A model generated the notes under the pieces. That model worked only from the letters and a program-made list of their open reading frames with translations. It did no database searches and was not told where the DNA came from. Below are positions 28,360 through 37,590 of a stretch of DNA of 64,000 nt, piece after piece (the stretch's first letter is position 1; every line of letters starts with the position of its first letter). The stretch is taken from contig NZ_JACEFB010000010.1 in assembly GCF_013694095.1 (NCBI RefSeq), forward strand, positions 62,001 through 126,000, written 5' to 3'. The position numbers were made by a program, and so were the translations under genes. This DNA comes from Thermogemmata fonticola. GTDB lineage: Bacteria; Planctomycetota; Planctomycetia; Gemmatales; Gemmataceae.

Positions 28360-28503
28360 CTAAATCTTCGAGGTAGTTACCTTTCTTATAATCTCAAAGG
28401 ATGTACTAATCACACATATAACACATATAACAGAAAACACAAGCCCTACGACTAGTAAAATCCACGGTCGCTGTTCCAGCCAAGCATGGCAAAGCTTATC
28501 CAT
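28360..28503 (-). pseudogene. Severed third repeat unit of the neighbouring membrane protein
   Basis: 47 codons from an ATG at 28503. The sequence HAWLEQRPWILLVVGLVFS aligns with TWLEKQPWIALLLGFL and TWREKQPWLTLTLGLL in the two complete units of the gene just upstream. The two frames overlap by 8 bases at the break, so a frameshift cut the third unit off. It may be translated as a one-helix peptide, but remnant is the simpler reading. Confidence 0.55.
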
Positions 28504-29098
28504 CTCGGCTGGCTTCCTTGCGAACTTGTTTATACTTAATGAAAATGGAAAGTGAGATGATCAAGAAAAAGATAACTACAAAGAGATTTAGTAATGTATC
28601 AACCCATGCCACCATGAAAAACTTTCCCATATTAAAAGCTACGCTAACCGCCAGCAAGACACTCATGACGCACGCCAGAAGACCTAAAGTTAGGGTAAGC
28701 CACGGTTGCTTTTCCCGCCAGGTAGCCCAATACCTACACGAGTCGGCTAAATAACGTGCGAATTGCTTATACTGAACGATCATCATGACCATGTAAAGAA
28801 ATATGAATATGCTAACGACTCCTGCAATGAGGTTTATTAACATATCACGCCACCCCAATATGAAGAATTTTCCCGTAATCTCAAGGGTGGCACTAGTCGC
28901 TACTAAGGAGCTAATCCCACCCATTAGGAACCCTAGAAGCAGGGCAATCCACGGTTGCTTTTCCAGCCAGGTGGCCGACCGCCTCCAATAATCGGCGGTA
29001 CAGCGTGCCACGCGCTTATACGTAATTACCACGCGAAGGGAAATGATCAAGAAACCGATTCCTGCAATGAGATCTAACGTATCACGCCACCCTGGCAT
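28496..29098 (-). CDS. Membrane protein made of tandem ~80-residue repeat units
   Basis: About 200 residues from ATG 29098 (GGGAG about 8 bases upstream). Two complete units and the start of a third share the pattern W-R-D-x-L-x-N-L-I-A, a long helix ending Y-K-x-x-A-R, R-x-x-A-T-W-x-E-K-Q-P-W, a second long helix, and G-K-F-F. Each unit should contribute two helices, giving about five in all. The units are also repeated at DNA level (GGTTGCTTTTC-C-GCCAGGT near 28705 and 28955, decayed near 28475). Lies just downstream of RHS fragment C, in the position of an immunity gene, and membrane immunity proteins are common. No known family recognised. The stop results from a frameshift in unit 3. Confidence 0.7.
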   Translation of the reverse strand: MPGWRDTLDLIAGIGFLIISLRVVITYKRVARCTADYWRRSATWLEKQPWIALLLGFLMGGISSLVATSATLEITGKFFILGWRDMLINLIAGVVSIFIFLYMVMMIVQYKQFARYLADSCRYWATWREKQPWLTLTLGLLACVMSVLLAVSVAFNMGKFFMVAWVDTLLNLFVVIFFLIISLSIFIKYKQVRKEASRDG

Positions 29099-29267
29099 GG
29101 AAGACTCTCCCGTTAACAAACACTCGGCACGATGTGGGCGGTCTTGTAGGAGCATTGTACAACGCCCTTGGCCAGCAACACAAGGGACAAGGCACCAAGT
29201 TGTTCGGCATCAAAGTATGTATGACAGAGAATCATATAGTGATCCGGAGCTTATCACCAACTTCAAT

Positions 29268-30640
29268 CTATGCCAGGTCTCTCACCAGACCCACCACCCC
29301 CCCACTCACGCCGGGCGACCCGACGCCCACCTCCCAAAATGGACCGGCCCCGCACACACCGATCTGGAAGCCCAAAGGTAATTTTATTGGTAAGTAAGCA
29401 CTTGTTCCTACGTTAATACCCGGGCAGATGGTGCCGGTGGGCGCCCAGTTCACACTAACCCCGGGATCTTGGAGGCCTACATAAGGATGAACAGACGGAG
29501 CAAAGCCAAATGGACCCGGTGGGCCGGCTCCAATTTGAACGCCACCGCCAATAATAAAACCCACGTTAATATCAATGTACCCGGGGATCCCCCAAGGAAG
29601 AGCGGGAGGTGGTGGTCCAGGGGCGGGACCAGGGCCAGGAGGTAGCTGGGCCTGAGCTAACAGGGGAAGGAGGGGAGCGACACCAGCTATAATGGGAATG
29701 CGGTTGCCCCTTGGTGGTCCAGGGGCGGGACCGGAAGGGGGAGGTAGGCCGGCCTGAGCCAACAGAGGAGTGACAGCAGCCACAATGGGTACGCCATTCA
29801 ACCCGCTGCCTAGACCAGCACTTGTGGCGATGCTGACAATTGCGCCTCTGAAAATACGTTCCTGATAAGCCCACGAACTGCGATCGATGACATCGTCGTA
29901 GCCTAAGCCACGGCGGAAGTAGCCAGCCATTCCTCCTGTGGCGGCATCACTGAACCCCGCAAAGCCGTTACTGACTTGGGCGAACCAGCCGGTGCGGGGG
30001 TGGCCGAGGACCGAGTCCATCGCCAGGATGTTTTCTGGACCGATCCAGTTTGCAACGACATCGTACCAAGGGGTTCGGCGTGGTGGCCTATTGTAGCTGC
30101 TGAGGCCGGGCACTGGGGGAACATGATGGGGCAGGGGCAAAAGCGGTATCATGGATATCGCGACGACTCGTGGCGTCGAACCGGCCGCCCTGGTGCAGGT
30201 AGACCCAGGCGAAGGCGCTGCCGGCCAGGATGTTCCAGCTGGCGTCGAGCACCGTCGCCAGACCGAACGGGTCGTAGACGTAACGCTCGACCACCTCCCC
30301 ACTGTTATCCATCAATGCCGTCACGTTGAAATTCGCATCCTGCACCACCCACAAGCGCTCCTCCAGTGTCCAATCACCGTCACTGTCCCGATCCCGCAGG
30401 ATCAGGGCATCGACGTAGACCGGACTCCAGACGTACTGCACCGTGGTCTGGCCGCCGACCCGCTCCTCCAACACCTGCCACGAGGAGGAGTAGTAGAAGT
30501 CCGTCGTCACACCATCTGCTATCTCGCTGATTCGCCGATGCAAACCGTCGTAGGCGTACCGCTTCACCGTCTCACCGCTGTCATCCCGCACCTCCACCAA
30601 CCGGTCGAGGCATTGTACACAAATTGCCACTCCGCCTATA
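29268..30640 (-). pseudogene. RHS fragment C: truncated core with a Gly/Pro-rich C-terminal tail
   Basis: Two frames of one broken RHS gene. The first (30088-30612) carries YD-repeat core: LVEVRDDSGETVKRYAYDG, VQYVWSPVYVDALILRDRD, WVVQDANFNVTAL, YDPFGLATVLDASWN, ending at LHQGGRFDATS. The expected GLYHFR-RDYSP-LGRW segment is missing, and coding resumes in another frame (TPWYDVVANWIGPENI ...). The tail has two copies of a Pro/Gly block (PLLAQAGLPPPSGPAPGPP and LLAQAQLPPGPGPAPGPP), then a Gly-rich beta-like end (NVGFIIGGGVQIGAG). At the 5' side a one-base deletion near 30615 breaks the frame and homology stops at about 30640. No recognisable toxin in the tail. Confidence 0.8.
30165..30636 (-). 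repeat. RHS core repeat, copy 1
   Basis: About 470 bases closely similar at DNA level to 33030-33502, covering the end of the RHS core. Differences are mainly scattered substitutions. Such conserved core ends are the recombination sites by which RHS tips are exchanged. Confidence 0.8.
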
Positions 30641-37209: not shown

Positions 37210-37590
37210 CTCACCCCCCTTCATCAGGTTTAGCACTCAGTCCGACTGAATCGAGTCATCAACCACTCCTGTTTAGACCGATCTCTAATATCGTCTCGCC
37301 TCTTTCTCATAACGGCGCCCTCGTTATCTCCCTACCCGTTCTGGGTGTGTGATTCTCTCACCAACGCTGCTTCTTGACGCCCCAAATCCGACACACCTTC
37401 CTGTCGTCATCCGTCCACGATCGTATCGTCGCCGGTCTCTCTTGCTTTTTTTCGAAATGTTGTCCGGCAACATCGCTGCCTTTGCATGAGAGGAGTGAAC
37501 GGACACCCCAGCGAAAGGCAAGGCAGAGGAGGCAATACAAAAAGGAGACTTTCTCACCAAATCCTAACACCCTAATAAGGAGGCAGAGCC
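37210..37590. other. Upstream region of the RTX/protease gene
   Basis: About 380 bases, presumably carrying its promoter. Two purine-rich ribosome-site-like runs (AGGAGGCA near 37580 and GAGGAGGC near 37525) are present; the nearer serves the gene. No clear -35/-10 pair or hairpin seen. Confidence 0.35.

Follow-up and report, generated by a model that had tools for sequence, protein, structure and literature searches.

We identified, on the minus strand of a 64,000-nucleotide stretch of Thermogemmata fonticola DNA (the window), a membrane protein gene built of three tandem units of about 240 bases that lies behind an RHS tip. We favor, with a probability of about 0.5, the reading that this hairpin array is a candidate membrane immunity protein of a displaced RHS toxin/immunity cassette and that it originated by tandem copying of a mini-gene. 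The repeat itself is real, well bounded, and somewhat unusual; what is new here is that the similarity between units reaches into a region resembling a ribosome-binding site before the first ATG. The features of the locus are listed below in the order in which the minus strand is read.

29912 to 29863, minus strand: conserved carrier segment of the RHS tip, 94% identical to a copy on contig C2 of the same genome
29862 to 29268, minus strand: unique Gly/Pro-rich end of the RHS tip, of which ~110 amino acids at the end are 52 to 57% identical to an RHS tip of another family
29116 to 29099, minus strand: region of unit 1 resembling a ribosome-binding site, and similar to codons at the two internal junctions
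29098 to 28496, minus strand: main ORF, 200 amino acids from ATG 29098 (219 amino acids from the upstream ATG 29155)
29098 to 28862, minus strand: unit 1, 79 codons (ATG, transmembrane [TM] helix, basic loop with WLEKQPW, TM helix)
28861 to 28616, minus strand: unit 2, 82 codons in the same frame as unit 1, with ATA at the junction where the ATG would stand
28615 to 28360 (end at 28360 approximate), minus strand: unit 3, first helix in the unit 2 frame up to the stop at 28496, the rest in a different frame
28503 to 28360, minus strand: latter half of unit 3, read in the shifted frame, a predicted 47 amino acids from ATG 28503 with one TM helix
28303 to 27800, minus strand: second small ORF of the cassette, with one N-terminal hydrophobic helix; alternative immunity candidate
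27707 to 27383, minus strand: RHS pretoxin Hint remnant, 95% identical to the C2 copy

A preliminary description made from the sequence alone had proposed tandem duplication at about 240 bp, with units alike at the DNA level and sharing W-x-E-K-Q-P-W, and each of these points was borne out. All three units lie on the minus strand. A repeat search found direct repeats spaced by 237 to 249 and 486 to 487 bases, spanning positions 28382 to 29113, and autocorrelation without gaps agreed with it (peaks at lags 487, 249, 486, and 238). Local DNA alignments between the units scored 134, 102, and 94, far above the maxima of 30 to 35 obtained in 300 shuffles (z = 41, 29, and 26 over shuffled controls). 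At the protein level, units 1 and 2 are 50% identical, units 1 and 3 are 41% identical, and units 2 and 3 are 33% identical. When the whole window was searched with a degenerate DNA pattern for W-x-E-K-Q-P-W, allowing up to 2 mismatches, the pattern occurred three times, each time within a unit, compared to an expectation of 0.09. Across the units the motif reads W-x-E-[KQ]-[QR]-P-W. Estimates of dN/dS, which are rough given the few synonymous sites, were 0.44 for units 1 and 2, 0.62 for units 1 and 3, and 1.0 for units 2 and 3. Hence, constraint along the array is uneven, and it is weak on unit 3.

The two-helix pattern that had been read from the sequence was recovered by two approaches. Hydropathy predicts two TM helices per unit, joined by the basic loop that carries the W motif, and a single-unit structure model, built from a two-sequence alignment, is a helical hairpin (helices at residues 4 to 47 and 49 to 78; pLDDT, 74). 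The model of the 200-residue protein is likewise helical (pLDDT, 66), with an arrangement that is not reliable. Each W loop contains 5 or 6 Lys and Arg residues, compared to 1 or 2 in the short loop between units; by the positive-inside rule, the W loops would be cytoplasmic.

With the three unit starts anchored, similarity between the units begins not at ATG 29098 but abruptly, 15 to 18 nt upstream of it, placing the upper end of the repeat at approximately 29113 to 29116. ATG 29098 is preceded by GGGAGAG and is the likely start codon of the main ORF. The start region of unit 1 reads GGGAGAG-TCTTCC-ATG, and the equivalent stretch is coding at both internal junctions, where it encodes T-G-K-F-F and M-G-K-F-F; the ATG position is kept before unit 3 and is ATA before unit 2. 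Beyond this stretch, the DNA upstream of unit 1 has no clear similarity to the junctions. Of 63,800 window positions, just 3 attain the observed start-region score (offsets -15 to -1), which equals the number of unit starts. Because the similarity starts at the region resembling a ribosome-binding site, the whole small gene was apparently copied together with that site, and its start regions became codons upon fusion. In the simplest account, a complete small gene would have been copied in tandem, from its ribosome-binding site through the start codon to a hairpin of two helices (about 80 amino acids); in-frame fusion of the copies would have turned the internal start regions into ordinary codons, such as those for T-G-K-F-F; and the extra copies would have been redundant, with decay already begun in the third.

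We compared the surroundings of the array with RHS loci elsewhere in the same genome. In the RHS/Hint tip on contig C2, the carrier and Hint parts are 100 bp apart, compared to 2.15 kb here, and the segment from 29862 to 27708 replaces those ~100 bp. Identity between the flanks and these two parts of the C2 tip is 94% and 95%. Hence, a cassette made up of the tip end (as far as 29268), the hairpin gene, and ORF 28303-27800 was placed inside an older RHS tip, whose Hint region persists as a remnant. No DNA match to the segment was found in the other RHS loci of the genome that were fetched, and the GC content is 44%, compared to 61% in the RHS core piece. The position behind an RHS tip, another point of the preliminary description, is confirmed by the match of the flanks to the C2 tip and by an RHS-tip homologue of the tip end. 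Several RHS tip pieces lie between tRNA-Thr (37137) and 27.3 kb, and this region has no full RHS gene. Two RHS core fragments (33945-33070 and 30630-30088) are 80% identical in DNA. The genome has 20 Rhs_assc_core places, all but two of them on other contigs, with a longest frame of 2,406 amino acids. The RHS frame just upstream of the cassette is truncated and frame-broken; hence, the cassette is probably not delivered in its present form.

One clear relative of the Gly/Pro-rich tip end was found in 397 genomes of the class: it closes an RHS frame in a genome of another family (G242) and is 57% identical across 103 residues. No third clear copy of the tip turned up in plasmids, viral sequences, or further genomes. 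The ORF directly behind the G242 tip encodes about 112 amino acids (predicted TM helix, Arg-rich loop with W, predicted TM helix), and a second 2-TM ORF follows ~0.6 kb further on. The two ORFs (5380-5006 and 4375-4070 of locus L052) both have Arg-rich loops. In position and architecture, the ORFs behind the G242 tip are like one hairpin unit, but they share no detectable sequence similarity with it: a 2-TM ORF of G242 had no detectable relation to units 1 and 2, and its match to unit 3 was borderline (fraction of shuffles, 0.01 to 0.04, in one of several comparisons). A crude survey of the 20 RHS ends in the T. fonticola genome, which takes the longest ORF at each end and misses at least one 2-TM ORF (32343-32095), picked no 2-TM ORF. 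Together, the G242 layout and the survey lend modest support, from two genomes, to a membrane immunity protein.

Using the protein and a three-unit profile as queries, we found no homologue of the unit in 99 genomes of relatives, 95 of the family, 397 of the class, and 392 of the phylum, and none in genome contigs, viral contigs, plasmids, or phages. There was no convincing unit match in Pfam, PHROGs, NCBIfam, PADLOC, or PDB sequences. Weak matches to segments that we take to be prepilin peptidase-like, CPBP-like, and DedA-like, and to a kinase juxtamembrane stretch, were rejected as unrelated membrane segments or chance. A Ser/Thr kinase-like frame in another genome (G227, locus L009) has W-I-R-E-K-P-W-L before a hydrophobic helix and resembles the second half of the unit; this resemblance is probably convergent.

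Polyimmunity proteins, in which tandem or mixed immunity domains form one polypeptide, have been described previously, and Imm73 occurs in 2 to 3 tandem copies (PMC3482391). Like these proteins, the hairpin array has several unit copies in one polypeptide in a polymorphic-toxin setting. Two full units and half of a third share one ORF, but the unit is no known immunity domain. The described cases consist mainly of globular domains (SUKH and SuFu), usually without a linked toxin cassette (PMC3482391), whereas the hairpin array has a membrane unit, follows an RHS tip, and has a repeat that includes the ribosome-binding-site region. Two-TM immunity proteins are known from the families Imm-CdiI and Imm17, and it has been suggested that they keep toxins from being taken up at the membrane (PMC3482391). 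Imm17 (PF15562) resembles the hairpin unit in having two TM helices with Trp and Arg between them. However, this is resemblance only: the WxW form of its motif is absent as such from the hairpin units, which are also fused in tandem, and the Imm17 profile, reported to an E value of 10, did not match them. With membership defined as a profile match above 25 bits, the sole Imm17 match of the genome is at C7:204557-204718, away from the window; this ORF has 84 amino acids and scores just above the cutoff. Displaced (orphan) rhs-CT/rhsI modules are known from enterobacteria (PMC3967940). As in those modules, the locus has a fragmentary RHS tip with a linked small gene, pieces of other tips on its flanks, and no full RHS frame: of the RHS core, only the fragments 30630-30088 and 33945-33070 are present, without a full N-terminal RHS part, and a cassette has been exchanged behind a conserved carrier. 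It differs from them in its bacterial group, in the lack of any full-length RHS gene in the window, and in a function that is a candidate one. The cassette has the layout of a displaced or orphan toxin/immunity module as in enterobacteria.

The preliminary description had considered the array a candidate immunity protein. Its position in a displaced cassette and the 2-TM ORF behind the homologous G242 tip uphold the candidacy, and the immunity role itself is plausible. The hairpins would be embedded in the inner membrane, their basic W-x-E-K-Q-P-W loops facing the cytoplasm. There they may protect the cell from the tip encoded just ahead of them, either through binding of that tip at the membrane or, by analogy with the proposal for two-TM immunity proteins, through preventing its entry. 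Against this reading, the unit has no sequence homologue to support a conserved gene pair, the G242 ORF shows no detectable relationship to either full unit, the tip has no known toxin activity, and the pair may be dead given the broken, truncated RHS frame upstream. The same cassette also contains ORF 28303-27800, which could be the cognate immunity gene; the array would then be an accessory subunit of the cassette or a membrane gene carried along as a passenger. Immunity proteins include NTF2-like folds (Imm-NTF2; PMC3482391), and this ORF has weak NTF2-like matches (DUF4019/MecA_N), all below the cutoff. However, the first gene after the tip is the hairpin gene, and the homologous tip in G242 is likewise followed by a 2-TM ORF; we consider the second ORF unlikely to be the cognate gene.

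A further question is what the frame break in unit 3 means. That the third unit is cut by a frameshift, as first described, is clear: the main ORF takes in two complete units plus the first helix of the third, a one-base length difference lies near 28525, and the remainder of unit 3 is open in the other frame for 54 codons, to the stop at 28360. The whole array might be a pseudogene in decay: a membrane gene that was duplicated by chance among RHS remains and is now under little constraint. The frame break, the dN/dS values of 1.0 and 0.62 for comparisons involving unit 3, the truncated and frame-broken RHS pieces around it, and the lack of relatives are consistent with this; however, units 1 and 2 are fully open with a dN/dS of 0.44, and an equally open tail arose in only 2.4% of shuffled tails, which argues for a recent break or a tail still in use. 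We regard this pseudogene reading as rather improbable. The break could instead stem from faulty assembly or sequencing, or the tail could be a separate, coupled product starting at ATG 28503. The one-base difference and the open tail fit this explanation, and ATG 28503 overlaps the stop codon of the main ORF (ATGGATAA), with an AAGGA-like site upstream. The sequence at the break has no long homopolymer, and we find this explanation of the break somewhat doubtful; it is compatible with a membrane immunity protein, with immunity residing in the second ORF, and with a passenger gene alike.

If the hairpins are immunity units, membrane-type immunity proteins can multiply and fuse as globular ones do, and by a readable path in which a gene and its ribosome-binding site are copied in tandem and then fused in frame. 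If they are not, the locus is still a well-resolved case in which tandem gene copies within an RHS cassette fused and decayed. It is a single orphan hairpin gene in a decaying RHS array. The preliminary suggestion that copy number could tune specificity or dose fared less well: the frameshift and weak constraint in unit 3 (dN/dS, 0.6 to 1.0) fit relaxed drift better than tuning. It is unlikely that the array is a membrane polyimmunity protein in which each two-helix unit would neutralize RHS tips at the membrane, ribosome-binding sites and start codons would have become linker codons, and unit number would change by recombination.

Elsewhere in the window, the ORF overlooked by the survey (32343-32095) encodes 82 amino acids with two TM helices, about the size of one unit, and lies behind a different RHS tip of this locus (33110-32424); sequence comparison showed no relation to the hairpin unit. 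Within the tip, the Pro/Gly-rich stretch at 29610-29784 is likewise repetitive, an imperfect tandem repeat of 73 nt at a spacing of 102 with 77% identity. An ORF at 37579 contains a 'LEDRTVPSA' stretch, which may point to a planctomycete close to Gemmataceae. Contigs C2 and C1 of the same genome carry large arrays of displaced RHS tips with varied ORFs behind them, and the C1 array includes the RHS frame of 2,406 amino acids.
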